Source: Leifsonia xyli subsp. cynodontis DSM 46306 (GTDB lineage Bacteria > Actinomycetota > Actinomycetes > Actinomycetales > Microbacteriaceae). Taken from it: a stretch of 64,000 nucleotides of DNA. Each line of letters starts with the position of its first letter. The first letter of the stretch is position 1. Below the pieces are notes generated by a model, which had not been told where the DNA came from, did no database searches, and saw nothing but the letters and a program-made list of their open reading frames with translations. Location: NCBI RefSeq assembly GCF_000470775.1, contig NC_022438.1:1364001-1428000 (forward strand). The letters are read 5' to 3'. Position numbers and translations under genes: made by a program. Below, piece by piece: positions 35,725-59,707 of the stretch.

Positions 35725-36810
35725 CTATCGGCCCAGCATCCTGTCAGCGGTGGCCCGCGCCCAGCCCTCCGCCTCCGCGAGGCCCTCCCGCGTCAGCTCC
35801 GCCTCGGGCTCGTGCGCGTCGACCACGCGCTCCACCGTGTCCACGATGTCGAGATAGCCGATCGCCCCGGCGTGGAAGGCCGCCACCGCCTGTTCGTTGG
35901 CCGCGTTGAAGACCGCCGGGTAGGTCCCGCCCGCCGCGCCCACGCGCTTCGCGAGGGCGACGGCCGGGAAGGCTTCGCCGTCCAGGGGTTCGAACGTCCA
36001 GGTGTGTGCGCGGGCCCAGTCGAGCGGGAGACCGGCCCCCGGCACGCGGTCCGGCCAGCCGAGGCCGAGGGCGATCGGGAGACGCATGTCGGGCGGCGAC
36101 GCCTGGGCGATCGTCGAGCCGTCGGTGAACTCGACCATCGAGTGGACGACGGACTGCGGATGCACGGTCACCTCGATGCGGTCGTAGGGCACGCCGAACA
36201 GCAGATGCGCCTCGATCACCTCCAGGCCTTTGTTGACGAGCGTCGAGGAGTTGGTCGTCACAACGAGGCCCATGTCCCAGGTGGGATGGGCGAGCGCCTC
36301 GGCCGGTGTGACCTGGCGCAGCGACTCGCGCGAGCGGCCGCGGAAGGGGCCGCCGGAGGCCGTCAGCACGAGCCGGCGGACTTCCCCCGTCGCCCCGGAA
36401 CGCAGCGCCTGCGCGAGCGCGGAGTGTTCCGAGTCGACCGGGACGAGCTGCCCCGGCGCGGCGGCCCGCTTGACGAGTTCGCCGCCGACGATCAGCGACT
36501 CCTTGTTGGCGAGGGCCAGCGTCCGGCCTGACTCGAGGGCGGCGAGGGTCGGGCCGAGACCGACCGAACCCGTGATGCCGTTGAGCACGACCTCCGCGTC
36601 GACGGAGCGGACGAGCCGCTCCGAGTCCTCGGCGCCCAGCGCGGTCTCCCGCACGCCGAATCGCTCGGCCTGCTCGGCGAGCTGGCCGGCACTGCGGCCG
36701 GCCGTCAACCCGACGACCTCGAACCGGTCCAGATGGGCCGCGACGACCTCGAGCGCCTGCGTGCCGATGGAGCCGGTGGAGCCGAGGATGACGACACGGC
36801 GCACGGGCAT
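35725..36810 (-). CDS. dxr: 1-deoxy-D-xylulose 5-phosphate reductoisomerase
   Basis: First committed enzyme of the MEP pathway. Begins [22 protein letters not shown] (NADPH-binding GSTGSIG), then [29 protein letters not shown] (metal and substrate motif), [10 protein letters not shown] and [12 protein letters not shown]. 361 residues, the usual length. The ATG at 36810 overlaps the stop of the FKBP gene (ATGA) and is preferred over the longer open frame upstream, which is only a shadow of FKBP. Ends with a C-terminal helical domain. Confidence 0.96.
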
Positions 36811-37775
36811 CAGCGGGTCGTTCCGAGGATGTCGACGACGAAGACCATCGTGTCGGTGGCTGTGATCTTCCCAGAGCCCTTCTCCCCGTAGCCGTCCGCG
36901 GGCGGGACGATCGCGATGACCTGCGAGCCGACGGTCTGGCCCTCCAGAGCCTTCTGGAATCCCTTCACCACGCCGGTGGTCTTGAACGAGGCCGGCGTGC
37001 CGCGGCTCCAGCTGGAATCGAACGTCTCCCCGTTGCGCCACAGCACGCCCTTGTACTGCACGGTCACGGTGTCTCCCGGGAGGACCGTCTCCCCGGAGCC
37101 CTGTTTGAGCTGCGCGATGCGGGTCTCGGTGGGCGGATCGGCCTTCGGGACGGTGATCGACGGCTCGCCGTTCTTGGCGAGCTTCACGGTCGGGAAGCCC
37201 GCGGGTGGGGTCACCGGCTTGCCGTCGGCGCGGGTCGGCGGGATGCCGATGAGGTCGGCGACGAGGACGACCGGGTCCTTCTCCTTCAGCCCGAGCTGCG
37301 AGGAGGCGGTGCCGAAGGCCTCTTCGGCGGTGGTGGTGACGACGGCGCGCGAGCCCACGGTGAGGCATTCGAGCGCGCGGACGAAACCGGGCAGAAGAGC
37401 AGAGTCCGTGAGCCGGGCGGTGAGGAGGCTGCCGCCGGCGAAGCCCTCCGGTGCGGCGATCTCCTTGCCGGTGGCGCCGTTGTAGGCGGCGAGGCCGACG
37501 GTGGCTGTGGCGCCCGGCGCCGCCTTCGCCCCCTTGCCCTCGATCACGACGCTCCGCTCAGTGCCCGAGACCGTGAGCGGAGTGCTGAAGGCGACCGTCG
37601 GCGTCTGGCCGAACTCACCGGTGACCTTCACCGATTTCGAGGCGCTGCCGGCCTTCGTGTTCTGGCAGGAGGCGCTCGCGGAGGTGGCGGACGGGCCCGG
37701 CGAGCCCGAGCCGCTGCACGCGGCGAGGCCGGCGACGATCAAGGCTGCGGTGATGACGGAGAGGGTTTTGCGCAC
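36810..37775 (-). CDS. FKBP-type peptidyl-prolyl isomerase lipoprotein
   Basis: 321-residue exported protein: signal [25 protein letters not shown] with lipobox LAAC. Two FKBP-like modules follow. The C-terminal one keeps the classical pattern: [55 protein letters not shown] and [10 protein letters not shown] (FDSS, YG and F-x-DxL positions present). The first module is degenerate. Extracytoplasmic foldase. GTG 37775; dxr overlaps its stop. Confidence 0.88.
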
Positions 37776-47927: not shown

Positions 47928-48013
47928 TTAGCTTCGACACAACCAGCCCGGCAAGTCGCCGCCGGGGCCAGACAACTCCGACAACCCGGAGCCCGCTAAC
48001 AGTGACACAGACA

Positions 48014-49018
48014 GGCGATCGCCAGCTGCTGCTGATTCTCGTCGGTCTGGCCGAAATCCGCGTTGTTTGTCTGGGCCAGGATGACCTGCGCGCCGTCCCG
48101 CATCATATCGGTCAGCAGCTGGTCGTCGACAATGTCGAAGCAGATCGAGATGCCGGCGCGCACACCGTCGATGTCGACGACATTGGCCTTTGTGCCCGGT
48201 GTGTAGTCGCGGGCGATGAGGTCGATGAGCGAGGGCGCGAACAGTCGCCAGAACGCCCGATCGGGGACGTACTCGCCGAAGGGATATCGGATGCTTCTTG
48301 TCGTACTGGTCGAAAGCGCCTTTTCCCGCCTCCCACTTCAGCGACGAGGTGAAGTACTCGCCGTCGCGCTCCGTGATGGTGCCGACGACGAACGGGGCGC
48401 CGTAACGACGGCTGAGCGCGTCGAGGACGGCGGCCGCATCCGGGTCCCGGGTCGGGTCGGGCAGCGCGGAGCCCTCGGGCCAGAGGACCACATCGACCCG
48501 TTCGTCGGGCGAGATCCTCTGAGTCTCCTCGACCTGGTGTCGAACACGGCGCCGACCGGCGCCCTGTCGAAGTACCCCGCGGGGCCATTGCCCTGGACCG
48601 CGGCGATGCGGACAGTCCCGTGCGTGGGTGTCGGCCAGGCCGGGATGGCGAACACGAGGGCGACGGCGATGCCGGCCAGAGCCCAGCGCTGGACGCTGCG
48701 CACCTCGGCCGCGAATCCCAGCTCGATCAGCAGCGCCACCAGCCACACCATCGCGAATCCGAGACCCGCGATGCCGAGCCAGGCGGCGAGCGGCGCGAGG
48801 GGGCTCTCCGACTGCGACTCGGCGACGCGACCCCAGGAGAAGAGGAAGGCCGCCCCGGCGCGACGGCCGCGCAGCGCGAGCAGCACCATCGCGATACCGG
48901 CGAAGGTGAGCGGCCACCAGTCGCGATCAGGGAAACCCGCGTCCAGCACCGGTCCCGCAGCGGCGGCAAGGAGGATCGCGAACCAGAGCGGGAGCGGAGT
49001 GCGAGGCGGTCGGGTCAC
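48014..49018 (-). pseudogene. lnt: Apolipoprotein N-acyltransferase, truncated, frameshifted and internally deleted
   Basis: GTG 49018, 8 nt after TAGGCT (49032-49027). Membrane helices are followed by FSWGRVAESQSESPLAPLAAWLG, but the preceding helices are too few: an internal deletion is likely. The nitrilase-like domain is present in pieces: TVRIAAVQGNGP; then (after a missing base near 48539) VDVVLWPEGSALPD (Glu) and YDKKHP; then (after an extra base near 48284) PFGEYVPDRAFW and ISICFDIVDDQL (Cys). It breaks off at QQLAIA where the IS21 end begins. Non-functional. Confidence 0.87.
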
Positions 49019-49055
49019 GATTCGAGAGCCTAAGGCGTCGCGCTCGGTGCGTCGT

Positions 49056-51491
49056 TCAGGCAACGGACGAGTACGCCACGATGCCGCGGCGAATGGCGTC
49101 CAGCGCCTGCCGTGCGGTGCGTCCCACCTTCCCCTGAGCGACCAGCGAGAGCTGATCGAGCAGATCGATGGTCTGTTTTGTCCAGCGGACGAAGTCGCCC
49201 GCGGCCATATCCGCCTCGCGGAGCACGGCGTCCAGCCCCGAGCCCCGAGCCCACTGGTGCATCGCGAGCGCCAGAGCGGTGGAGGGCGGCTCGCTGCCGG
49301 GCAGGCGATTCTCCCGTTCCAGATCGTCCAGCCGGGACCACAGGTCGGTCGTTTTGTCGAGCGCGGGGCGGAAAGCCCCCTGTGGCAGCGCCCGGTCGTG
49401 CCCCAGCCCGTCGTCGCGGCGGGGCTCGAAGACGAGGGCGCAGGCCATCGCGGCGAGACTCGGAGCGTCCAGCTCCTTCCAGGTGCCGCGGCGCAAGCAC
49501 TCGGCGACGAGCAGGTCGCGCTCGCCGTAGATGCGCTTCAGAGTGCGGCCGTGGGCCGTCAACTGCGTCGCGCCGTCGTCGACGACGAGATAGCCCAGCT
49601 CGTCCAGCACATCCGAGACGCGGTCGAAGACCTTCGCGACGGCGCCGGTGCGGGACTGGATCTGCGCGCTGAGCCGGTCGGTCTCCCGCTTCAGCTTCCA
49701 CCAGCGCTCGGCCCAGCGGGCATGCTGCTCTCGATCCGGGCAGCGGTGGCACGGGTGCTCGCGCATCCGCTTGCGCAGCTCGGTCAGCTGCCGCTGGCGG
49801 CGATCGCGATCGGCACGCGAGGCGTTGTCGAGCCGCTGGCCCTTGCGCTCCAGATCGGTGAGCTCGCGACGGAGACGGGAGTACTCGCGGAAGTCGCCGA
49901 GGTGGCAGGTCATCGCCCTCTCGTAGCCGGCGAGCGATTCCTCCTGCTGGCGGACCTTGCGCGCCAGGTCGACCACCGCGCGGTCGGCCTGGAACTGCGC
50001 GAACGACGACTCCAGGATCTCCCGGGTGCGCTGCCGTCCGAACTGGTCGATCAGATTGACCGCCATGTTGTACGTCGGCCGGAAACTGGAGTTCAGGGGG
50101 TAGCTGCGCCGCGAGGCCAGCGACGCGACCGACTGCGGATCAAGACCGTCCTCCCACTGGATGACGGAGTGCCCTTCCACATCGATGCCACGCCGCCCGG
50201 CACGTCCGGTCAGCTGCGTGTACTCCCCCGGTGTGATCGGAACGCGGGATTCGCCGTTGAACTTCTCGAGCTTCTCGAGCACGATGGTCCGCGCCGGCAT
50301 GTTGATGCCGAGCGCCAGCGTCTCCGTCGCGAACACGACCTTGACCAGCTTGCGGCGGAAGAGCTCTTCCACGACCTCCTTGAACGCCGGCAGCATACCG
50401 GCGTGATGGGCGGCGACGCCGCGTTCCAGCCCCTCCAGCCACTCCCAATAGCCAAGCACCGCGAGATCCTCGTCCAGCAGTGTGCGGCAGCGCTCCTCCA
50501 CGATGGAGCGGATCTCGTCGCGCTCGCGCTGCTCGGTCAGCCGGACGCCAGCCCGCAGAGTCTGCTGTACGGCGGCGTCGCAGCCGTTGCGGCTGAAGAG
50601 GAAGAAGATGGCGGGAAGCAGGTTGTGCTCGTCCAGCAGCCGCACGATCTCGGCGCGGTTCATCCGGAACGAGTCCGGCCGTCCCCCGCGCGAATGGCGC
50701 CGGCCGACATCGCGCGTCTGCCGGCTGCTGAGCACGCGGCCCCCGGAGCGTGCCATCTGAACGAGCTCCGGGTTCACCCGGTTGGTCGCCGCCAGCCCCG
50801 ACGAGTCGAACAGGTCGATCAGCTTGGAGCGCATCAGGATGTGCTGCTCCAGCGGCACCGGACGCTCCTCGGAGACGACGACGTCCGTGTCGCCGCGGAC
50901 CGCCTGCAGCCAGTCGCCGAACTCCTCCGCGTTGGACACCGTCGCGCTGAGCGACACCATCCGCACCGGCGGGGGAAGATGGATGATGACCTCTTCCCAC
51001 ACAGCGCCGCGGAACCGATCAGCGAGGTAATGCACCTCGTCCATCACCACGTACGCCAGATCGCCGAGCAGATCGGAGTCCGCGTAAAGCATGTTGCGCA
51101 GCACCTCGGTCGTCATGACGACGATCCGGGCGTGCGAGTTGATGTTCGTGTCGCCGGTGAGCAGACCGACCGACTCGGGACCGTAGGTGTCCTGGAGCTC
51201 CTGGAACTTCTGGTTGCTCAGAGCTTTCATCGGAGTGGTGTAGAACACCTTCGCGTTCGCCTCGCGCATGGCGAGGAACACGGCGAACTCCGCGACGATC
51301 GTCTTGCCCGCGCCGGTGGGCGCGGCCACGAGCACGCTCCGGCCGTTCTCCAGGGACGTACACGCCTCCCGCTGGAACGGATCAAGGTCGAAGCGGAGCC
51401 CCGCCAGGAACGTCTCGAGCAGGGGCTGCCGTGTACGCTGTCGGGAAGCGGCGAAGCGCTCGGCCAGGGAGAGCTGCTGCTGATCGGTCAC
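49056..51491 (-). CDS. helY: DEVH-box helicase of the Ski2/Mtr4-like HelY group
   Basis: 811 residues. Walker A VAAPTGAGKTIVAEF, YTTPMKALSNQKFQEL (Ib), VVMDEVHYLADRFRG (DEVH box), VSLSATVSNAEEFGDWL (SAT), and QLTGRAGRRGIDVEGHSVI (motif VI). A long C-terminal arch-like alpha-helical domain with a CHRCPDREQHARW Cys pair follows. Predicted superfamily 2 RNA/DNA helicase, function little known in Actinobacteria. GTG 51491 is 6 nt after TAGGCT (51503-51498), leaderless. Positioned after tatC as in Mycobacterium (Rv2092c). Confidence 0.92.
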   Translation of the reverse strand: MTDQQQLSLAERFAASRQRTRQPLLETFLAGLRFDLDPFQREACTSLENGRSVLVAAPTGAGKTIVAEFAVFLAMREANAKVFYTTPMKALSNQKFQELQDTYGPESVGLLTGDTNINSHARIVVMTTEVLRNMLYADSDLLGDLAYVVMDEVHYLADRFRGAVWEEVIIHLPPPVRMVSLSATVSNAEEFGDWLQAVRGDTDVVVSEERPVPLEQHILMRSKLIDLFDSSGLAATNRVNPELVQMARSGGRVLSSRQTRDVGRRHSRGGRPDSFRMNRAEIVRLLDEHNLLPAIFFLFSRNGCDAAVQQTLRAGVRLTEQRERDEIRSIVEERCRTLLDEDLAVLGYWEWLEGLERGVAAHHAGMLPAFKEVVEELFRRKLVKVVFATETLALGINMPARTIVLEKLEKFNGESRVPITPGEYTQLTGRAGRRGIDVEGHSVIQWEDGLDPQSVASLASRRSYPLNSSFRPTYNMAVNLIDQFGRQRTREILESSFAQFQADRAVVDLARKVRQQEESLAGYERAMTCHLGDFREYSRLRRELTDLERKGQRLDNASRADRDRRQRQLTELRKRMREHPCHRCPDREQHARWAERWWKLKRETDRLSAQIQSRTGAVAKVFDRVSDVLDELGYLVVDDGATQLTAHGRTLKRIYGERDLLVAECLRRGTWKELDAPSLAAMACALVFEPRRDDGLGHDRALPQGAFRPALDKTTDLWSRLDDLERENRLPGSEPPSTALALAMHQWARGSGLDAVLREADMAAGDFVRWTKQTIDLLDQLSLVAQGKVGRTARQALDAIRRGIVAYSSVA

Positions 51492-51552: not shown

Positions 51553-52344
51553 CTAGACGGGGAGGTCGGCTTCCAACCGCTGGGCGGCTTTGGCGGCCCG
51601 GCGATCGTGCAGCCACGACACGCCGTAGGCCCCGAAGTAGAGGAACACCATCGGGATCGCCAGCAGGAACATCGAAAGCACATCGGCCGCGGGCGTCGCG
51701 ATCGCCGTGAAGAGGACGATCGCGATCATCGCCCAGCGCCACGACGCGATGATCGTTTTGGCGCTCAGCACCCCCACGAAGTTGAGCAGCACCAGGAACA
51801 CAGGCAGCACGAACGCGACCCCGACGGCGATGACAAGCTTCATGATGAAGTCGAAGTAGGTCTTGGCGCCGATGATCGCCGAGTCCTGCTCCGGGGCGAA
51901 GCTCGTCAGCAGGCTCACGATGTGCGGCACCAGCAACCAGCCGACGAAGCCTCCCGCGATGAACAGCGGCACGGCGGTGAAGAAGAACCCAAAGGCGTAC
52001 TTCAGCTCCCGGCGCGTCAGCGCGGGGACGAAGAACGCCCAGATCTGCCACAGCCAAACGGGACTGGAGATGATGGCGCCGATGGTGATCGCCATCTGCA
52101 TCTTGAGGTCGAACGCCCCCGTGATGCTGTCGTAGTTGAGCATGGCCTCACGGCCCTGCTGCGCGGCGATGTCGGTGACAGGCCCACGCATCGCGTTCAT
52201 GATGGGTGAGGCGAGAAACCAGCCGACGACGGCTCCGGCGAACAGAGCGATCGCCGATCGGAAGAGGCGTTTACGAAGCTCGATGAAGTGCTCGGCAAGC
52301 GACATCCTGCCTTCGCTGTTCTTGCCTCGCTTCTTCGAGGCCAC
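51553..52344 (-). CDS. tatC: Sec-independent protein translocase subunit TatC
   Basis: About 263 residues from GTG 52344. Core: MSLAEHFIELRKRLFRSAIALFAG (the conserved MxLxEHLxELRxRL signature), WAFFVPALTRRELKYAFGFF, then about six membrane helices ending ATPAADVLSMFLLAIPMVFLYFGAY. Recognises twin-arginine signal peptides. The gene is 4 bp after tatA. GTG 52344 gives VASKKRGKNSEGR before the core; longer upstream frames overlap tatA and are not favoured. Confidence 0.94.
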   Translation of the reverse strand: MASKKRGKNSEGRMSLAEHFIELRKRLFRSAIALFAGAVVGWFLASPIMNAMRGPVTDIAAQQGREAMLNYDSITGAFDLKMQMAITIGAIISSPVWLWQIWAFFVPALTRRELKYAFGFFFTAVPLFIAGGFVGWLLVPHIVSLLTSFAPEQDSAIIGAKTYFDFIMKLVIAVGVAFVLPVFLVLLNFVGVLSAKTIIASWRWAMIAIVLFTAIATPAADVLSMFLLAIPMVFLYFGAYGVSWLHDRRAAKAAQRLEADLPV

Positions 52345-52348
52345 GGCG

Positions 52349-52579
52349 TTACTTGGAGTTCTGCTCGGACGAGGTGCCCGTGTCGGTCGTCGGGGCGGTG
52401 CCGCCACCTTCGCCCTTCTCCTTATCGCCATCCTTCTTCATCTCGTTGACTTCACCCTTGAAGATCCGCATGGACTGCCCGACGCTCTTGGCCAGAGCGG
52501 GAAGCTTCGGCGCGCCGAACAGGAGCAGGATGACTGCGAGAATGATGAGCAGATGCCATCCGGTGAGGCCGCCGAGCAT
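52349..52579 (-). CDS. tatA: Twin-arginine translocase subunit TatA
   Basis: 76 residues. MLGGLTGWHLLIILAVILLLFGAPKLPALAKSVGQSMRIFKGEV is the single helix followed by the FGAPKLPxLAKSxGxSMRxFK amphipathic helix. The hydrophilic, charged C-terminus is typical of TatA. ATG 52579 has AAAGGA at 7 nt upstream, which decides this start over the TTG at 52585. The RBS lies inside the end of the upstream small membrane-protein gene. Confidence 0.95.
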   Translation of the reverse strand: MLGGLTGWHLLIILAVILLLFGAPKLPALAKSVGQSMRIFKGEVNEMKKDGDKEKGEGGGTAPTTDTGTSSEQNSK

Positions 52580-52581
52580 GA

Positions 52582-52932
52582 TCAAGTCCTTTGGGTGAGG
52601 TGGGTTTGACGAAACGGGTTCGCGTTAATCAACAGTTTACCGCGCCTAACCCGTGAATCCCTGCGAGATTGCCGAACAAAGGCCCGGTTCGCGAGCGCTT
52701 GCGTACGCCGATCGCGAAGCTGCGTGGCGTCCAGGAGCACAGCAGGGTGAAAGGGAGCCTCCCGCACCTCCTGCATACGTCGTGTCAGTATTTCAGTACT
52801 CTCAAGGAGGGCCGCCGTCTCCGAGGCGGCGGCCATCAGCTTGCGGAACAGCCACCAGGCGAAGAACGCGAGCATCCCGAGGAGGCCGAGCACAAGCGCG
52901 AGCCAGATCAGGAGCCACGACCACCAAACCAT
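52582..52932 (-). CDS. Small membrane protein of unknown function between pafC and tatA
   Basis: 116 residues: one N-terminal transmembrane segment (WSWLLIWLALVLGLLGMLAFFAWWLF), then an amphipathic region with coiled-coil character (KLMAAASETAALLESTEILTRRM) and a basic C-terminus. No recognised domain. The position between pafC and tatA, with its stop 2 bp from the tatA ATG, suggests cotranscription with tatAC. The function may be linked to the Tat or WYL neighbours, but nothing in the sequence shows it. Confidence 0.62.
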   Translation of the reverse strand: MVWWSWLLIWLALVLGLLGMLAFFAWWLFRKLMAAASETAALLESTEILTRRMQEVREAPFHPAVLLDATQLRDRRTQALANRAFVRQSRRDSRVRRGKLLINANPFRQTHLTQRT

Positions 52933-52941
52933 GTGGCTATT

Positions 52942-53916
52942 TTAACGGTATCGACGGGCGCCCGCACGAGCCCATTCCGCGACGACACGACGCGCCTCGG
53001 GCGGATCGAGAACGGTGAGCACACCGGAGAGTCCCGCGACCAGCCGCTTGAGGCCGTGGAAGTGGGCGACGCGGACACTCGTGCGCAGCCGCCCGTCGCG
53101 CTCCTGGCGAACCGCGTTCTCGGGGATGTAGTCCTCGATCAGGGGCACAGCGGAGGCGGAGACCTCGATCGTGACCAGTGAGTCCTCCGGGGTGCCCTCG
53201 AACAGCGTCTCCGGGAGCGTGACATCGCCCGGCCGGTAGGAGATCGGCTCATCGGTGGCCACGAGGTCGTCGATGCGGTCGAGACGGAACGTGCGGATCG
53301 CGGTCCGGAGATGGTCCCAGCCGCGCAGATACCAGTCCTGGTCGATGGATTCGACGCGCAGCGGATCGACACGGCGCCGCTTCCGCTCGCCGCGCGAATT
53401 CCGGTAGGCGAACTCGAGCTGGGCGCCGGCGACCACCGCATCCCGGATGGTCGCCAGAGCCTCGTCCGACTCCGAGCGGGCGACGGCCACCTGACTGGGG
53501 GCCGCAGAGGCTCCTCGGGCCAGCTTCGCCATGAGCGAGCCGATGACATCGCGGTCGGCGTTCTCGGTCAGGGCCGTGAGGTACTGGAGTCCGGCGATGA
53601 GCGCGGCGGCCTCCCGGGCGGAGAAGCGCGGCGAGTCGTCGATCGCGACCTGGTGGGTGAGAACGATCTGATCGTTGTCCTCGAAATCGTCCCAGGCGAT
53701 GTCGAACAGGTCCCCCGGCTGGTAGGCGGTGGTCTCCCCCGGGATGCCGGAGACCGCGATGAGGCGGACGGCGTCGCGCATGCTCTCCTGGTCGACGCCG
53801 AAGTGCTGGGCCGCCTCGGCGACGCTCACCCGGTCCCTGTCCATCAGGTAGGGCACGAGTGCGAGCAGGAAGGCCAGTTTGTCCTGCGCCTGCATCGGAC
53901 GCCTCCACTCAGCCAT
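52942..53916 (-). CDS. pafC: WYL-domain transcriptional regulator PafC
   Basis: 324 residues. N-terminal winged helix (KLAFLLALVPYLMDRDRVSVAEAAQHFGVDQESMRDAVRLIA) and a central WYL-like domain (LEFAYRNSRGERKRRRVDPLRVESIDQDWYLRGWDH), then a C-terminal WCX-like extension. With PafB it activates RecA/LexA-independent DNA damage genes in mycobacteria. ATG 53916 overlaps the pafB stop by 8 bp, so the pair is coupled. Confidence 0.9.
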   Translation of the reverse strand: MAEWRRPMQAQDKLAFLLALVPYLMDRDRVSVAEAAQHFGVDQESMRDAVRLIAVSGIPGETTAYQPGDLFDIAWDDFEDNDQIVLTHQVAIDDSPRFSAREAAALIAGLQYLTALTENADRDVIGSLMAKLARGASAAPSQVAVARSESDEALATIRDAVVAGAQLEFAYRNSRGERKRRRVDPLRVESIDQDWYLRGWDHLRTAIRTFRLDRIDDLVATDEPISYRPGDVTLPETLFEGTPEDSLVTIEVSASAVPLIEDYIPENAVRQERDGRLRTSVRVAHFHGLKRLVAGLSGVLTVLDPPEARRVVAEWARAGARRYR

Positions 53917-54931
53917 GCACGCTCCCCTCGTGCGCCGCCGCCGTCGCGCGCAGCCGTCCGAGCACCTTGTCGCGCAGCTCCTCAGGGGCTATCACGTGTA
54001 CCTCCGGGCCGAAGCTCGCGAGCTGATCGGCGAGGATGTTGATGTCGGAGAAGTTGACCGCAAGCCGGAACGCTTCCCCTGCGCCCGCGATCGGGACCGC
54101 ATCGCCGGAGCGTTTGCCCAGACGGGTCGCCGCGTCGGTGCCGACTGTGACCTCGACCTCCGCGACATTGGCCGCCCAGATCGCATCCAGCTCCGCGAGC
54201 GCCTGCGCGGCGAAGTCGCCCTCCTCCTGCCGGAACCCGCGCGCGGTCAGCTTGACCGGGCCCACGATGCGGGAGAGGAGGAAAGTGCGCGCCTCCCCGG
54301 CGTCCTGGTCCATGCCCCGCACATGCCAGCGCCCCTGGTGCTGCACCAGGGCGAGCGGGGCGACAGTGCGCAGCCGGGACGCGCTCTCGCCGGGCTTCAG
54401 GTAGGGGAACTGGACGAGGACATGCCGCTCGAGGGCCTGGCTGAGCGGCTCGAACGCACTCTCCCGGGCGCGCAGACGGGGCGCGTAGCCGACGATGGGG
54501 TCGTCGGCCTCCACCCCGAGGGAACGCAGCTTCAGGAGCGCACGCCGGGACTCGCCGGAGAGCGAGCCCTCGCGCCAGACCGTGGCCGCGAGGCCGAGCA
54601 GGGTGATCTCCTCGGGTGAGAACACGACATCCTGAGGCAGGTCGTAGGCACCCTTCGGAATGCGGTAGCGCAGCAGCTGGTTGTTGCCGGCCGACTCGGG
54701 CGACTCCACCGTCTCCAGGGGCACGCCGAGCTCCCGGATGTCGTCCTTGTCGCGCTCGAACTGGCGCTCCAGGGAAGCGTTGCCGCCGTGCGCGTCGAAA
54801 CGCTGGCGGTAGCCCTGGACGGTGGACAGGATCTCATTCTTGGTCAGCCCGTTCTCGGTCGCGAGCAGCGCCAGGACGAGGCTGAACAGACGCTCCTCGA
54901 CCGGGACACGCGAGGACGAGGATCGAGACAC
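53909..54931 (-). CDS. pafB: WYL-domain transcriptional regulator PafB
   Basis: 340 residues. HTH ERLFSLVLALLATENGLTKNEILSTVQGYRQ, a helical spacer, the WYL core with VLVQFPYLKPGESASRLRTVAPLALVQHQGRWHVRGMDQD (WYL-like WHV), and a C-terminal WCX domain. It forms the PafBC heterodimer. GTG 54931 lies 6 nt after TAGAAT (54943-54938), leaderless. The gene just upstream encodes an FKBP-like lipoprotein, where other Actinobacteria have pafA and the proteasome genes. Confidence 0.9.
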   Translation of the reverse strand: MSRSSSSRVPVEERLFSLVLALLATENGLTKNEILSTVQGYRQRFDAHGGNASLERQFERDKDDIRELGVPLETVESPESAGNNQLLRYRIPKGAYDLPQDVVFSPEEITLLGLAATVWREGSLSGESRRALLKLRSLGVEADDPIVGYAPRLRARESAFEPLSQALERHVLVQFPYLKPGESASRLRTVAPLALVQHQGRWHVRGMDQDAGEARTFLLSRIVGPVKLTARGFRQEEGDFAAQALAELDAIWAANVAEVEVTVGTDAATRLGKRSGDAVPIAGAGEAFRLAVNFSDINILADQLASFGPEVHVIAPEELRDKVLGRLRATAAAHEGSVHG

Positions 54932-54974
54932 CCGCTCATTCTAGTCCGCGGACGAGTCCGGGCAGCCGAGGCGG

Positions 54975-55906
54975 TCAGCGGATGCCGAGGATGTCCACGA
55001 CCCAGGCCGAAGCGGGGAAGCCGCCGGAGGCGGGCGTCTCGATGACCAGCTGCGAGCCGGTCTTCTGGCCGACCAGTTCCTTCAGCATGCTCTGCGGGAG
55101 CACGCTCTGGTTCTGGCTCTGGATGGTGCTCTGGCCGGTCGCCAGACTCGCGAGGTCCGCAATCCCTGCGGTCCACGAACTGGTGACGATCTTCTTGTTC
55201 TCCCAGCCGACGACCGTGTAGTTCAGGACGATCTCGCTGTCCTTCTTGACGGTCGCACCGTCACCGGCCTTGAGCAGTTCGCTGCGCACGCTCTGGGGTG
55301 CGGAGCCCGAGGACGGGATGGTGATGCCGGGCTGGCCGGTCGGGGCGAGCACCACGGTCGGGAAGCCCGAAGCGGCCGGACGCACCGCGCCGTTGGCGGC
55401 CGAGGGGTAGGACTTGACGATGTCGATCACGTAGATCGGCGAGGTCCTCTTGTCCTGCGAGCCGGCGTCCGAGGGCGAGAGCACAATCGCGACGCGAGAG
55501 CCGACGGCCGCGCACTGCAGACCCTTGCTGATCGGGTCGGAGCCGAGCGGGAACCACTGTGTGCCGCGGCTCTGCCCGGCGATCTGGCCCGTGACGCCGT
55601 TGACCAGAGTGTAGCTCAGCTCGATCGAGTCGCCCTTGTGGACGCGGTCGCCGCTGCCTGCGGTGAGGATGCTGCGCTGCGATGAGGCGGTGTAGATCGG
55701 GGACGGCGCCGTCACCGTCGGCGAGCCGCCGAACCTTCCGGTGGCCGAGACCAGGGCGGAGGCCTTGCCCGCGGTCAGCTCGGTGCCGCAATCGGCGTTG
55801 GGGTCCGAGGAGCATCCGCTGAGCGCGGCGGCCACTAGGGCGGCGGCCACGAGGGCGGCGGCCAGGACGACGGCGGACGTTCTTCCGAGTGCGGTTGCTC
55901 TGCGCA
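54975..55906 (-). CDS. FKBP-like lipoprotein, catalytically degenerate
   Basis: About 310 residues. Signal RRATALGRTSAVVLAAALVAAALVAAALSGCSS with lipobox LSGC, then two FKBP-like domains (GDSIELSYTLVNGVTGQ; SEIVLNYTVVGWENKKIVTSSW ... QKTGSQLVIETPASGGFPASAWVVDILG). It resembles the lipoprotein at 36810 but lacks the FDSS aspartate (VTSS) and the YG and other aromatic active-site positions, so isomerase activity is doubtful. GTG 55906 with AGAGGA upstream fixes the start. It sits where pafA normally precedes pafB. Confidence 0.8.
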
Positions 55907-55971
55907 CGGGTCCTCTTTCGATCCGATCGGTGGTGAGCGGTCGCGCTGCTTTCGCGGCGGCCTCCCTCATG

Positions 55972-56991
55972 TTAGTCGACGCCCGGAGCGTCCTCGTTCC
56001 GGTCGCGGGCCAGGTCGGCGCTCGCCGCCGCCTCGCGCATCCGCTTGCGGAGGCTCTTCGGGCTGGACTGGCGCTCGCCCAGCGCTCCGGGCGTCCAGGC
56101 CTCGACATCCGCGTCCGAGTAGTCGCTCTTGGAGGGACGTCGCTTCAGCTCGGGAAGCACCGTGCCCGGCGCCAGCCGGCGAGCGGTGAGGAGGAAACCG
56201 GTGTGCGCGATCATGCGGTGGTCGGGGCGGACGGCCAGCCCTTCGACATGCCAGCCACGAACCATCGTTTCGCTGGACTGGGGATGCGTGTAGTGGCCGG
56301 TCGCCCGGATCGCCTCGGCCACGCGCGAGAGCTGGGTCACGGTCGCGATGTAGCAGAGGACGACCCCGCCGGGTTTGAGCGCGGCGGACACCGCCTCCAG
56401 CGTCTCCCAGGGCGCGAGCATGTCCAGGACCACGCGGTCGACGGAGCCGGGCTCGACGGTGGCGGGCAGGGCGTCCTGCACATCGCCGACGGCGACGGTC
56501 CAGTTCTCCGGATCGCGGCCGAGGAAGGAGGCCGCGTTGTCGCGCGCGACCTCCGCGAACTCCTCGCGGCGCTCGAACGAGAGCAGTCGGCCCTCCGGTC
56601 CGATCGCGCGCAGCAGCCACAGCGAGAGGGCGCCGGAGCCCACGCCCGCCTCCACGACCGTGGCGCCGGGAAAGATGTCGGCGAGGGCGAGGATCTGCGC
56701 GGCGTCCTTCGGATAGACGATGGCCGCGCCACGGGGCATGGACATCACGAAGTCGTTCAGCAGCGGACGGAGCGCGAGATGTTCGACGCCCACATTGTTG
56801 ACGACCACCGAACCGTCGTGCTGGCCGATCACAGCGTCGTGCTCGAGCACGCCGCGGTGGCTGTGGAACAGCGCGCCCGGGACGAGGGTGATCGTGTTCA
56901 TCCGGCCTTTGGGCCCGGTGAGCTGCACACGGTCGCCCGCGCGGAACGGTCCGGAGCTGCGCGGGGCACGCTCGGGGCTGACGCCGGTCAC
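55972..56991 (-). CDS. trmI: tRNA (adenine-58-N1)-methyltransferase TrmI
   Basis: 339 residues. N-terminal RNA-binding barrel (FRAGDRVQLTGPKGRMNTITLVPGALFHSHRGVLEHDAVIG), then the class I SAM fold: DIFPGATVVEAGVGSGALSLWLL (motif I), GRLLSFERREEFAEVARDN, and RVVLDMLAPWETLEAV (motif IV). Makes m1A58 in the T-loop. GTG 56991 overlaps the HAD gene stop (GTGA) and is translated from it. Downstream, after 65 bp, comes the FKBP-like lipoprotein: the usual mpa/arc-dop-pup cluster is not here. Confidence 0.92.
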   Translation of the reverse strand: MTGVSPERAPRSSGPFRAGDRVQLTGPKGRMNTITLVPGALFHSHRGVLEHDAVIGQHDGSVVVNNVGVEHLALRPLLNDFVMSMPRGAAIVYPKDAAQILALADIFPGATVVEAGVGSGALSLWLLRAIGPEGRLLSFERREEFAEVARDNAASFLGRDPENWTVAVGDVQDALPATVEPGSVDRVVLDMLAPWETLEAVSAALKPGGVVLCYIATVTQLSRVAEAIRATGHYTHPQSSETMVRGWHVEGLAVRPDHRMIAHTGFLLTARRLAPGTVLPELKRRPSKSDYSDADVEAWTPGALGERQSSPKSLRKRMREAAASADLARDRNEDAPGVD

Positions 56992-57677
56992 AGGGCCTCC
57001 CTCCTGGCCGCGGCGGCCGCGGCGACATCCTCGGCCGAGCGGCCCTCGAGGGTCGGCCACAGCGTGTGTTCCTCCGACTCGGGCAAGGGCACGATGTGGG
57101 GCACGCCGATCGCGACGGCGCCCGAGGCGACGGCGGAGGCGAGACCGACCAGCGAATCCTCGATGGCCACAGCCTCGCGCACTTCCACGCCCAGCAGCCG
57201 CGCTGCCCGCAGGTACGGCTCGGGATGCGGCTTCGGCTCGTCCACCTCGTCGCCGCTGACGATGGCGTCGAACGCGGCGAACGGGATGCGATCGACGATC
57301 TGCTCCGCCATGCTGCGCAGCGACATGGTCACGAGGGCCGTCGGAACGTTCCGCTCGCGCAAGCTCGCGAGGAGCTCGCGGGCTCCCGGACGCCACGGCA
57401 CGCCATCGGCCGAGAGACGCTCGCACACCCGCCCGGTCAGCCAGGCGACGATCGCATCCGCCTCCATCTCGACGCCGCCGCGGGTGCGGAGGACCTCGGC
57501 CGAGTTCCAGAGTCCGAGACCGACCATGAGGAGAGCGTCGTCGTGAGTCCAGACGCCGCCGAACGAGGCCACCAGCTCGCGCTCCGCATCCATCCAGTAG
57601 GGTTCGGTGTCGACGAGTGTGCCGTCCATATCCCAGAAGACGGCGGCCGGCATCGCGTGCGGAGTCAGTTGGGTCAC
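56988..57677 (-). CDS. HAD-superfamily hydrolase (beta-phosphoglucomutase-like)
   Basis: About 229 residues. Motif I FWDMDGTLVDTEPYW (DxDGT), motif II VTMSLRSMAEQ, motif III DEPKPHPEPYLRAARLLG with K, motif IV AIEDSLVGLASAVASGAVAIG. The cap pattern is that of the phosphoglucomutase/CbbY group. GTG 57677 fits a leaderless start: TAGACT on this strand (57691-57686) then 8 nt. An in-frame ATG at 57653 immediately before the HAD fold is the alternative. Divergent from the PAC2 gene; trmI overlaps its stop. Confidence 0.85.
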   Translation of the reverse strand: MTQLTPHAMPAAVFWDMDGTLVDTEPYWMDAERELVASFGGVWTHDDALLMVGLGLWNSAEVLRTRGGVEMEADAIVAWLTGRVCERLSADGVPWRPGARELLASLRERNVPTALVTMSLRSMAEQIVDRIPFAAFDAIVSGDEVDEPKPHPEPYLRAARLLGVEVREAVAIEDSLVGLASAVASGAVAIGVPHIVPLPESEEHTLWPTLEGRSAEDVAAAAAARREAL

Positions 57678-57765
57678 GGCAGACAAGTCTATCCCGGCGG
57701 CCTCGGGCTTATTCTTGAGGGATGGCGTCCCGACCGGTCGCCGGACGAAAGGACCAGAACGCCCC

Positions 57766-58686
57766 GTGACTGACGCGAACAGCATCCTCGGAGGGCGCAT
57801 CCTCGTGGTGGCCTTCGAAGGGTGGAACGACGCTGGCGAGGCCGCCAGCGGGGCCGTCAAGACGCTCAAAGACCAGCTGGATGTCGTCCCGGTCGCCGAG
57901 GTCGACCCCGAGCTGTACTTCGACTTCCAGTTCAACCGGCCGGTCGTCGCGGACGACGACGGCCGCCGGCGCCTCATCTGGCCGTCCGCGGAGGTTCTGG
58001 GCCCGGCTCGCCCCGGCGACACCGGCGACGCGCTCGCCAGCGACGTGCTTCTCGATGCCACCGGCGCCAACGCGGGCAATATCTTCCTCCTCCTCGGCAC
58101 CGAGCCTTCGCGCAGCTGGCGCAGCTTCACGGCGGAGATCATGGATGTGGCCCTGGCCTCCGACATCGGCGCCATCGTCTTCCTCGGCGCAATGCTGGCG
58201 GACGTGCCGCACACGCGCCCCATCTCCGTCTTCGCTTCGAGCGAGAACGCGGCCGTCCGTGCGGAGCTCGGCATCGAACGCTCTGCGTACGAGGGGCCGG
58301 TCGGCATCCTGAGCGCGCTCGCCGAAGGGGCGGAGGAGGTCGGCATTCCGACCATCTCCATTTGGGCGTCCGTTCCGCACTATGTACACAATGCGCCCAG
58401 CCCGAAAGCGGTGCTCGCACTCATCGACAAACTCGAAGAGCTGGTGGATGTCACCATCCCGCGTGGCTCGCTGGTGGAGGAGGCCACAGCCTGGGAAGCC
58501 GGGATCGACGCGCTGGCTGTGGACGACGACGAGATGGCCGCTTATATCCAGCAGCTGGAGCAGGCACGCGACACCGTGGACTCCCCCGAAGCCAGCGGCG
58601 AGGCGATCGCCCAGGAGTTCGAGCGCTACCTCCGCCGCCGCGATGGTCGCGACGGCCGCGCCGGCGACGACCCCCGCCGAGGCTGA
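57766..58686 (+). CDS. PAC2 family protein
   Basis: 306 residues: ILVVAFEGWNDAGEAASGAVKTLKDQ, then IFLLLGTEPSRSWRSFTAEIMDVA, IGAIVFLGAMLADVPHTRPISV and SIWASVPHYVHNAPSPKAVLALIDKLEEL. This is the actinobacterial PAC2 (DUF75) family, related to eukaryotic proteasome-assembly chaperone 2. The GTG at 57766 has GAAAGGA about 12 nt upstream. In Mycobacterium homologues sit near the proteasome locus; here the proteasome genes are absent, so the link is broken. Function unknown. Confidence 0.82.
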   Translation: MTDANSILGGRILVVAFEGWNDAGEAASGAVKTLKDQLDVVPVAEVDPELYFDFQFNRPVVADDDGRRRLIWPSAEVLGPARPGDTGDALASDVLLDATGANAGNIFLLLGTEPSRSWRSFTAEIMDVALASDIGAIVFLGAMLADVPHTRPISVFASSENAAVRAELGIERSAYEGPVGILSALAEGAEEVGIPTISIWASVPHYVHNAPSPKAVLALIDKLEELVDVTIPRGSLVEEATAWEAGIDALAVDDDEMAAYIQQLEQARDTVDSPEASGEAIAQEFERYLRRRDGRDGRAGDDPRRG

Positions 58687-58721: not shown

Positions 58722-58815
58722 AACGGAGGAGTTTCCTACCCAAATGTCCGAAAACTCCTCCCTTTCCTGATTTTCTCCCGCAAGTCGCCCAACATCTCCT
58801 CCCTTTTCCGACATC
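58722..58815. repeat. Intergenic GGAGGAG/CTCCTCC palindromic repeat cluster (copy 2)
   Basis: AACGGAGGAGTTTCC (58722-58736), 18-nt spacer, CTCCTCCCTTTCCTGA (58755-58770), then CTCCTCCCTTTTCCGACAT near 58795. It has the same two motifs, order and spacing as in the cluster at 16174. AAACGGAGGAGTTT can pair with AAACTCCTCCCTTT with one mismatch. It lies in the gap between the convergent PAC2 and uppP genes. Confidence 0.75.
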
Positions 58816-58842
58816 GGAGGAGGCCAAGACCCGGGGCGAAGA

Positions 58843-59707
58843 TCAGGGGGTGAGGACGCCGGTGCTCAGCAGGACGATCAACAGCGCACCGAGGGCGATG
58901 CGGTAGACGACGAACGGCAGGAAGCTGCGCCGGGAGATATAGCCCATGAAGAAAGCGATCACCAGCAGGCCGACCACGAAAGCGACCGCGGTCGCCGCAG
59001 CGGTCTCGACCGGTCCGAAGACTTCGGGGGTGCAGTGTCCGGCCTTCGCGAGCGCTTCGGCACACGGCTCCTTGAACGCCTTGTAGAGCTGGTACAAGCC
59101 GCTGCCGAAGACCGCGGGGATGGCGAGCAGGAATGGAGTACCGGGCGGCGGCGCGACGCTGGTACCCCATGAACAGCCCGGCGGTGATCGTTCCGCCGGA
59201 GCGGGACACGCCCGGGATGAGCGCGAGCGCCTGCGCGAAGCCGAAGACGATGCCGTTGCCCCAGGTCAGCTCGCGGAGGCGGCGGGTCTTCGCGCCCACC
59301 CCGTCCGCGATGCCCAGCAGGATGCCGAAGACGATGAGCGTGACGGCGACGATCCAGAGCGAGCGGAAAGTGGTCTCGATCGCATTCTGGAACGCCAGGC
59401 CGAGGACGACGATCGGAACGCTGCCCAGGATGACCAGCCAGCCCATCCGGGCGTCCGGGTCGCTACGCGGCACCCTGCCGGACAGCGACTGGACCCAGCG
59501 CGAGACGATCCGCGCGATGTCGCGCCAGAAGTACAGCAGCACGGCGGCCTCCGTGCCGAGCTGGATGATCGCGGTGAAGCGGGCGCCCGGGTCCCCGCCC
59601 GTGCCCAGCAGCTCACCGACGATGCGGATGTGCGCGCTCGAGGAGATGGGCAGGAACTCGGTGAGTCCCTGGACGAGGCCCAGGATGAGGGCGTTGAGGA
59701 AGTCCAT
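58843..59707 (-). pseudogene. uppP: Undecaprenyl-diphosphatase UppP, single frameshift
   Basis: BacA-type enzyme that recycles the lipid carrier of peptidoglycan. [29 protein letters not shown] (first motif), [19 protein letters not shown] and [27 protein letters not shown] (PGxSRSG motif) are followed by a 1-nt insertion near 59150. After this the correct frame continues [23 protein letters not shown] and ends [20 protein letters not shown] ... STGVLTP at 58843. Both catalytic motifs precede the shift, but the last helices are lost. RBS AAAGGA before ATG 59707. Could also be a sequencing error. Confidence 0.85.

Follow-up and report, generated by a model that had tools for sequence, protein, structure and literature searches.

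Proteasomes are described as nearly universal among actinobacteria in a study whose genomes include Leifsonia xyli, Clavibacter and Microbacterium (PMC4255298). A partial loss of the Pup-proteasome system is known that removed only the proteasome subunits and left the enzymes of pupylation in place (PMC6466877), Corynebacterium glutamicum being an example (PMC8223512). According to a 2006 paper, Bifidobacterium has no proteasome, and proteasome loss had at that time not been clearly shown for free-living bacteria (PMC1586193). In Mycobacterium smegmatis, proteins induced by the activator PafBC, such as RecA, are pupylated and then removed after stress (PMC8223512). Here we describe the pafBC locus in a 64,000-nucleotide stretch of the Leifsonia xyli subsp. 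cynodontis DSM 46306 genome (NC_022438.1, positions 1,364,001 to 1,428,000; hereafter the window), in which no Pup-proteasome gene is found between trmI and pafB. The genome is complete, with a single contig of 2,686,418 bases, and its closest relatives by pafB are other Leifsonia (78-85% identity).

In loci carrying a match to the Pup_ligase profile, which covers Dop and PafA (Pup-ligase-positive loci), synteny places trmI as the gene directly preceding the Pup-proteasome block. The locus described here has trmI, an FKBP-type lipoprotein gene, pafB and pafC (with tatC and helY where these are visible) in the same order as such actinobacterial loci; it differs in that the genome has none of arc, dop, pup, prcB, prcA and pafA, and in that Pup and Pup-ligase are absent across the sampled Microbacteriaceae. 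The features on which the comparison depends, in window coordinates, are:

55972..56991, minus strand: trmI, tRNA methyltransferase (Pfam TrmI-like_N and GCD14; synteny)
54975..55907, minus strand: two-domain FKBP-derived lipoprotein, lipobox placed by eye (no Pfam match at E<=0.1; profile homologues in Pup-ligase-positive loci; substitution ratios and FD motif)
54938..54943, minus strand: -10-like TAGAAT, candidate leaderless promoter, 6 bases upstream of the pafB GTG (sequence)
53909..54931, minus strand: pafB, WYL-WCX regulator (Pfam WYL and WCX; alignments to PDB 6sj9, 9fnd and 7p5x)
52942..53916, minus strand: pafC, HTH_PafC-WYL-WCX regulator with an 8-bp overlap with pafB (Pfam PF19187, E=9.7e-32; PDB alignments)

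The two regulators form a PafBC pair by Pfam, being adjacent, each with WYL and WCX domains, and with a helix-turn-helix in PafC. The distance from the trmI stop (55974-55972) to the lipoprotein GTG (55907), previously given as 65 bp, was counted as 64 bp.

Profile searches of the complete genome returned no match for Pup, none for Pup_ligase, none at E<=1 for the proteasome subunits PrcB and PrcA (PF00227) and none for the OB domain of the proteasomal ATPase ARC/Mpa (PF16450). The Pup, Pup_ligase and PF16450 searches recovered the positive control, C. glutamicum. The original prediction, that the interval holds no proteasome, Dop, Pup or PafA gene, therefore stands and extends to the whole genome, where the suggested search for Mpa/ARC, Dop, Pup and PafA found none of them. 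Among 249 sampled Microbacteriaceae genomes representing 85 genera, Pup_ligase was found in none, and Pup was above the cut-off in none, with one weak sub-threshold match (a 277-aa frame in G065, a genome 83% complete). The weak Pup_ligase matches in G615, G545 and G588 were all below the cut-off; two of these three loci were inspected (L131 and L133), and in both the match lies antisense to an open reading frame (ORF) resembling a fatty-acid-oxidation gene. Weak PF16450 matches occurred in G180, G226, G110 and G111, two just above the cut-off and two below it. The two above were judged to be chance rather than a real ATPase, as their scores barely pass the cut-off and, by eye, the matched frames lie opposite other plausible genes.

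Across the order, 353 of 396 genomes were over the Pup_ligase cut-off. The 43 genomes below it include at least 31 Microbacteriaceae and at least nine from two other families, eight from one and one from the other, all with genomes of 0.8-1.8 Mb (G251, G299, G420, G444, G487, G525, G578, G579 and G623). Because only 59 of 119 genomes sampled across the phylum were over the cut-off, absence of Pup_ligase is not in itself rare at that depth. Two points limit the case for a family-wide absence of the entire system: the proteasome-subunit search covered this genome only, and 2 of the 249 genomes scored just above the PF16450 cut-off (23.1 against 23 bits). Since Pup_ligase is present in 0 of 249 genomes of the family against 353 of 396 in the order, the loss of the Pup-proteasome system is ancestral to the Microbacteriaceae, nested within a mostly Pup-positive order. 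The earlier reading of a loss particular to this genome is thus not borne out; it had been noted that a block missing from all Microbacteriaceae would make the loss ancestral, and 249 of 249 genomes lack Pup-ligase proteins.

What the family has kept was compared with the characterised activator. In M. smegmatis, the PafB variants R211A/R214A, R181A, R181A/R204A/R208A and Y196A lose binding of single-stranded DNA (ssDNA), while the PafC variant R201A/R204A retains it, as reported in PMC11804915. We located the equivalent sites by counting along alignments with the solved PafBC structures 6sj9 (Arthrobacter aurescens), 9fnd and 7p5x; 9fnd, 9fne and 7p5x are taken to be M. smegmatis PafBC, since their residue numbers fit PMC11804915. 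A first set of 80 family loci was found by similarity to the window PafB, using one search peptide that spans the altered site, and a second set of 40 genomes from 40 genera was for that reason chosen by PafC matches. Together they gave 121 family PafB rows, or 110 distinct sequences, 29 of them found in the second set only. Of 40 Pup-ligase-positive loci, fetched in two batches of 20, 24 yielded PafB (10 and 14, respectively), with 23 distinct sequences. Six loci of the second set gave no PafB; in one (G718) the stretch represents the other side of pafA, and another (L205) holds a fused PafBC whose PafB part retains the Tyr and Arg, and which comes from the same genome as L115 and stands outside the counts.

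In the window PafB the Y196, R204 and R211 sites are occupied by His, Ala and Leu, respectively, and R181, R208 and R214 are retained. All 110 distinct family sequences have Leu at the R211 site, where all 23 Pup-ligase-positive ones have Arg. At the Y196 site the family has His in 94, Met in 8, Leu in 7 and Tyr in 1, against Tyr in 23 of 23. At the R204 site Arg is found in only two family sequences, with a gap in one, and in 22 of the 23 Pup-ligase-positive sequences. The remaining tested sites are largely intact in the family: R181 is Arg in 109 and His in 1, and R208 is Arg in 79 and Lys in 31. In PafC, R201 and R204 were kept in 80 of 80 rows each in the first set and in 39 and 40 of 40, respectively, in the second, while the tunnel residue W250 is replaced family-wide, mostly by Pro (with the register uncertain by one). 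Nine of 295 PafB columns are conserved at 85% or more in Pup-ligase-positive rows with the residue present in 5% or fewer of the family rows, and three of these nine belong to the six ssDNA residues that were assayed in M. smegmatis (hypergeometric P=0.0004, calculated post hoc). In FastTree phylogenies of PafB and PafC the family rows group as a single clade (support 0.94 and 0.93), the PafB tree having been built without the three replaced ssDNA-site columns. Further family-specific replacements of residues that are conserved in Pup-ligase-positive PafBC, at positions 26, 35 and 88 of PafB and 16 and 49 of PafC (window numbering), lie outside the tested ssDNA site.

The part of PafB that reads promoters has been kept. 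R44 and R48 of the A. aurescens PafB are promoter-reading residues of the recognition helix (PMC6789036), and the equivalents of R44, F46 and R48 are kept in 120, 121 and 121 of the 121 family rows. A search for the PafBC (RecA-NDp) promoter motif TGTCRG-N10-TA-N3-T, taken from PMC8151990, gave 21 matches in this genome against 5 for the reversed pattern counted in the same genome as a control. The putative target of each motif was defined as the gene with the first in-frame start codon downstream, and products were named by NCBIfam, several from truncated frames or below curated cut-offs. With starts 0-148 nt downstream, the targets include recA, uvrA, uvrB, ribonucleotide reductase alpha, dnaX, dnaB and a ParA-like ATPase, together with a UvrD-like helicase (weak match), a RarA-like ATPase, a TM0106-type RecB-like nuclease and a helicase with a weak match. 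By raw count, 11 of the 21 motifs precede repair, replication or segregation genes. A twelfth target resembles a winged-helix crosslink glycosylase (by eye; no NCBIfam match), others are metK, a major facilitator superfamily (MFS) efflux gene, an aldo-keto reductase and a 208-aa ORF, and 5 of the 21 motifs have no convincing downstream gene. The chosen start codon lies 6-9 nt past the motif in 8 of the 21, as in leaderless promoters, and the frame is open through the motif in 8 of 16 genes, so an earlier start is possible there. The efflux gene, of EmrB/DHA2 type, has its motif 6 nt before the first start (L156, genome positions 1807157-1807178), a hint that the damage regulon includes an exporter.

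Motif counts were also made in 80 chosen genomes. The ratio of motif to control was 1132:219 in 41 Microbacteriaceae genomes with an HTH_PafC match and 69:65 in five without one, and was 705:133 in 25 Pup-ligase-positive genomes. At E<=0.001, HTH_PafC was matched in 244 of the 249 Microbacteriaceae genomes, although the model also matches other WYL-type regulators and many genomes have several matches. As the motif is enriched in this genome and placed before recA, uvrA, uvrB, dnaX and dnaB, PafBC probably still runs a DNA-damage regulon here, which agrees with the earlier statement that these regulators act in a DNA damage response. Three observations count against this: 6 of the 41 PafC-positive family genomes, four of them smaller than 2 Mb, had motif counts that did not reach twice the control; the same was true of 4 of the 25 Pup-ligase-positive genomes; and of the five genomes lacking a PafC match, one has a completeness of just 78%. 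Separately, the nine small Pup-ligase-less genomes of the two other families showed no enrichment (55:79), unlike the Microbacteriaceae.

In comparison with the activator of M. smegmatis and A. aurescens (6sj9), the PafBC of this family thus has the same WYL-WCX architecture, PafC helix-turn-helix, gene adjacency, promoter-reading Arg, PafC WYL arginines and promoter motif before recA, uvrA and uvrB, and differs in the equivalents of PafB Y196, R204 and R211 and of PafC W250. We consider it probable that an ancestral loss of pupylation, a retained PafBC regulon and a change in the PafB residues hold jointly. In the sequence of events that we propose, the Pup-proteasome block would have disappeared from between trmI and the FKBP lipoprotein on the Microbacteriaceae stem, with trmI, the lipoprotein, pafB and pafC retained. 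PafBC could have outlived pafA because it has a job of its own and because most of the sampled loci offer it a separate candidate leaderless promoter: a TANNNT box stands 5-9 nt ahead of an in-frame pafB start in 55 of the 80 family loci and in 7 of the 10 Pup-ligase-positive ones, against 9, 1 and 0 of the 80 and 1, 0 and 0 of the 10 at control offsets. Gain of a new pafB promoter after the loss of pafA was considered and rejected, since the box is present in 7 of the 10 Pup-ligase-positive loci too. PafBC would still activate repair and replication genes at its motif, presumably through sigma adaptation, and on the same stem the ssDNA face of PafB (Y196, R204 and R211 sites, with PafC W250) would have been remodelled while the promoter-reading helix and the PafC WYL arginines were kept. 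The trigger of the regulon would then most likely be either ssDNA gripped chiefly by PafC together with the PafB residues R181, R208 and R214 that remain, or an altered ligand. The response would end without pupylation, the induced proteins being removed by other proteases.

The most specific form of this proposal is put forward tentatively from the residue comparisons, as we rate it quite possible but short of probable: a rewired PafBC, in which PafB no longer captures ssDNA and the repair regulon is triggered via PafC or a different damage ligand, fixed on the stem of the Pup loss so that sensor and off-switch changed together. An alternative to the sensing step alone, somewhat doubtful in our judgement yet a serious possibility, is that PafBC senses ssDNA as it does in mycobacteria and that the replacements are neutral or compensated within the tunnel. 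PafB R181, R208 (as Arg or Lys) and R214 and PafC R201 and R204 are all retained, and in M. smegmatis PafB-only arginine mutants keep partial function in vivo (PMC11804915, PMC6789036). Y196A, and R211A and R214A together, nevertheless abolish in vitro ssDNA binding in M. smegmatis (PMC11804915); the R211 replacement is fixed (110 of 110) and not drifting; and W250 of PafC, in the same tunnel, has been replaced as well. Two facts weigh against a rewired sensor. R214 is Arg in all 110 family sequences, and the M. smegmatis R211A/R214A mutant, which lost ssDNA binding in vitro, lost viability only moderately (PMC11804915). The replacements may therefore have had little effect on ssDNA sensing. 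The PafB change on the stem may have preceded or followed the loss of Pup.

That PafBC is an inert relic, or has a role unrelated to DNA damage, is improbable. The replacement of key ssDNA residues in PafB could be read in this way, but the ratio of non-synonymous to synonymous substitution rates (Ka/Ks) for pafB and pafC was about 0.03-0.25 in the ten pairs compared, and the motif is enriched before recA, uvrA and uvrB with no enrichment in the five family genomes without a PafC-type match.

Returning to the ancestral loss with a retained PafBC, the history of the interval was followed through synteny. Of the 80 related loci that had been fetched by similarity to the window PafB, 76 have trmI as well as pafB in view, and every one of these carries trmI, the lipoprotein and pafB consecutively, so the arrangement is not due to chance; this is the comparison across other Microbacteriaceae that had been proposed at the outset. 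Measured between tblastn match ends, the distance from trmI to pafB was 1.0-1.45 kb in 74 loci and 3.4-3.6 kb in two (L066 and L103). The two long intervals contain inserted genes, an L,D-transpeptidase-like gene with a repeat protein and an HNH-endonuclease-like gene (names by eye), and no recognisable Pup-proteasome gene. Around Pup_ligase matches 20 loci were fetched, pafB being visible in ten, and for one of these, L116, Pfam matches confirmed the complete arc-to-pafB order as arc, dop, pup, prcB, prcA, pafA, FKBP lipoprotein, small FKBP, pafB.

In 8 of these 10 Pup-ligase-positive loci (not L111 or L128) the small FKBP gene separates the lipoprotein from pafB. No separate frame for it was found across the 76 Microbacteriaceae intervals, except a 21-bit frame in L094 (9756-10064) that overlaps the lipoprotein match of that locus. 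More than the trmI-pafA block has therefore changed, and the description of a clean loss is only roughly true: the Pup block is gone, but the small FKBP is missing here in the family as well. A small FKBP is encoded at another site of this genome (L139), 45-55% identical to the nine copies from the loci.

The view that pupylation was never present in the Microbacteriaceae stem lineage, and hence that nothing was lost, is very improbable. No convincing Pup remnant was seen in the family, where the weak Pup_ligase matches are all below the cut-off; the family is nonetheless nested in an order with Pup-ligase in 353 of 396 genomes and shares with it the same trmI-pafB frame where this is visible, so that a loss is far simpler. 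A recent loss tied to genome decay in a small-genome lineage is hardly credible, for although this genome, at 2.69 Mb, is smaller than those of four sampled congeners (3.7-4.2 Mb) and some neighbouring ORFs appear frameshifted (by eye), it is refuted by a family survey in which all 249 genomes, many of them 3-4 Mb, lack Pup-ligase, and by identical synteny in 76 of 76 testable loci.

No published statement of a Microbacteriaceae-wide Pup loss or of the PafB change was found in the literature searched, which left subscription papers mostly outside it; the family loss may be implicit in PMC4255298, which has a proteasome figure. The fixed change at the PafB ssDNA site, in a pupylation-less family that has kept the PafBC promoter code, is the more interesting result. 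A large family without pupylation but with this promoter code is a natural test of whether switching on the response and clearing it up are separable, and the fixed replacement of ssDNA-capture residues makes the ligand choice of a WYL regulator directly testable using wild-type proteins. If the rewired reading is true, the damage sensor and the Pup-based off-switch changed together on one stem.

The lipoprotein between trmI and pafB had been described as degenerate, and as now occupying the gap left by the lost genes. The first description holds: the fold is degenerate in Leifsonia, the window copy gave no FKBP_C match at E<=0.1, and its FD motif is replaced. FKBP_C was matched in the homologues of Cryobacterium (L103) and of the Pup-ligase-positive L116, and 32 of 81 aligned copies retain the FD motif in their second domain. 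A homologue with an open frame was recovered in each of the 80 Microbacteriaceae loci, and a hidden Markov model of the lipoprotein found a strong homologue (>140 bits) in 16 of the 20 Pup-ligase-positive loci, with none in L120, L123, L127 and L130. Because such a homologue already stands immediately upstream of pafB (the small FKBP gene apart) in all ten Pup-ligase-positive loci with pafB visible, the lipoprotein is, by homology and position, an old inherited neighbour of pafB and fills no gap, contrary to the second description. It shares with the FKBP-type peptidyl-prolyl isomerase lipoprotein of those loci its position, two-domain lipoprotein layout and profile homology, and differs in the loss of the FKBP signature from the Leifsonia copy. 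Its Ka/Ks was 0.49-0.70 in comparisons involving the window copy and 0.05-0.25 in three close Leifsonia pairs, and on the latter values it does not look like a pseudogene. A second FKBP lipoprotein in the window adjoins a dxr-like ORF (name by eye), and in pairwise comparison is closer than the trmI-pafB copy to the lipoproteins of Pup-ligase-positive loci.

The gene order PAC2, HAD, trmI, lipoprotein, pafB, pafC, tatA, tatC, helY was confirmed by Pfam and translation. The minus strand reads trmI, lipoprotein, pafB, pafC, a 116-aa protein, tatA, tatC and helY, with the HAD and PAC2 genes beyond trmI. The remaining features are:

57607..58686, plus strand: PAC2 family protein (ORF; PAC2 domain from about residue 69; Pfam PF09754, E=1.9e-51)
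56988..57653, minus strand: HAD hydrolase (likely true start within ORF 56988-58361, placed by translation; Pfam PF00702, E=9.9e-27)
52582..52932, minus strand: 116-aa probable membrane protein (by eye) between pafC and tatA (no Pfam match)
52349..52579, minus strand: tatA, 76 aa (identified by eye from the translation)
51553..52431, minus strand: tatC (ORF; true start probably internal; Pfam PF00902, E=1.3e-55)
49056..51491, minus strand: helY-type DEAD-box helicase (Pfam DSHCT and DEAD)
36810..37775, minus strand: second two-domain FKBP lipoprotein, FKBP domain intact (PF00254, E=1.5e-20)

Two neighbouring genes are possibly frameshifted. The Pfam match of a UppP/BacA-like ORF (58736-59707, minus strand) spans only positions 1-194 of 257, and its tail looks out of frame, while an apolipoprotein N-acyltransferase-like reading (47928-49063, minus strand) is spread across overlapping frames (by eye). 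The 116-aa protein has counterparts 39-57% identical at the same place in the relatives examined.

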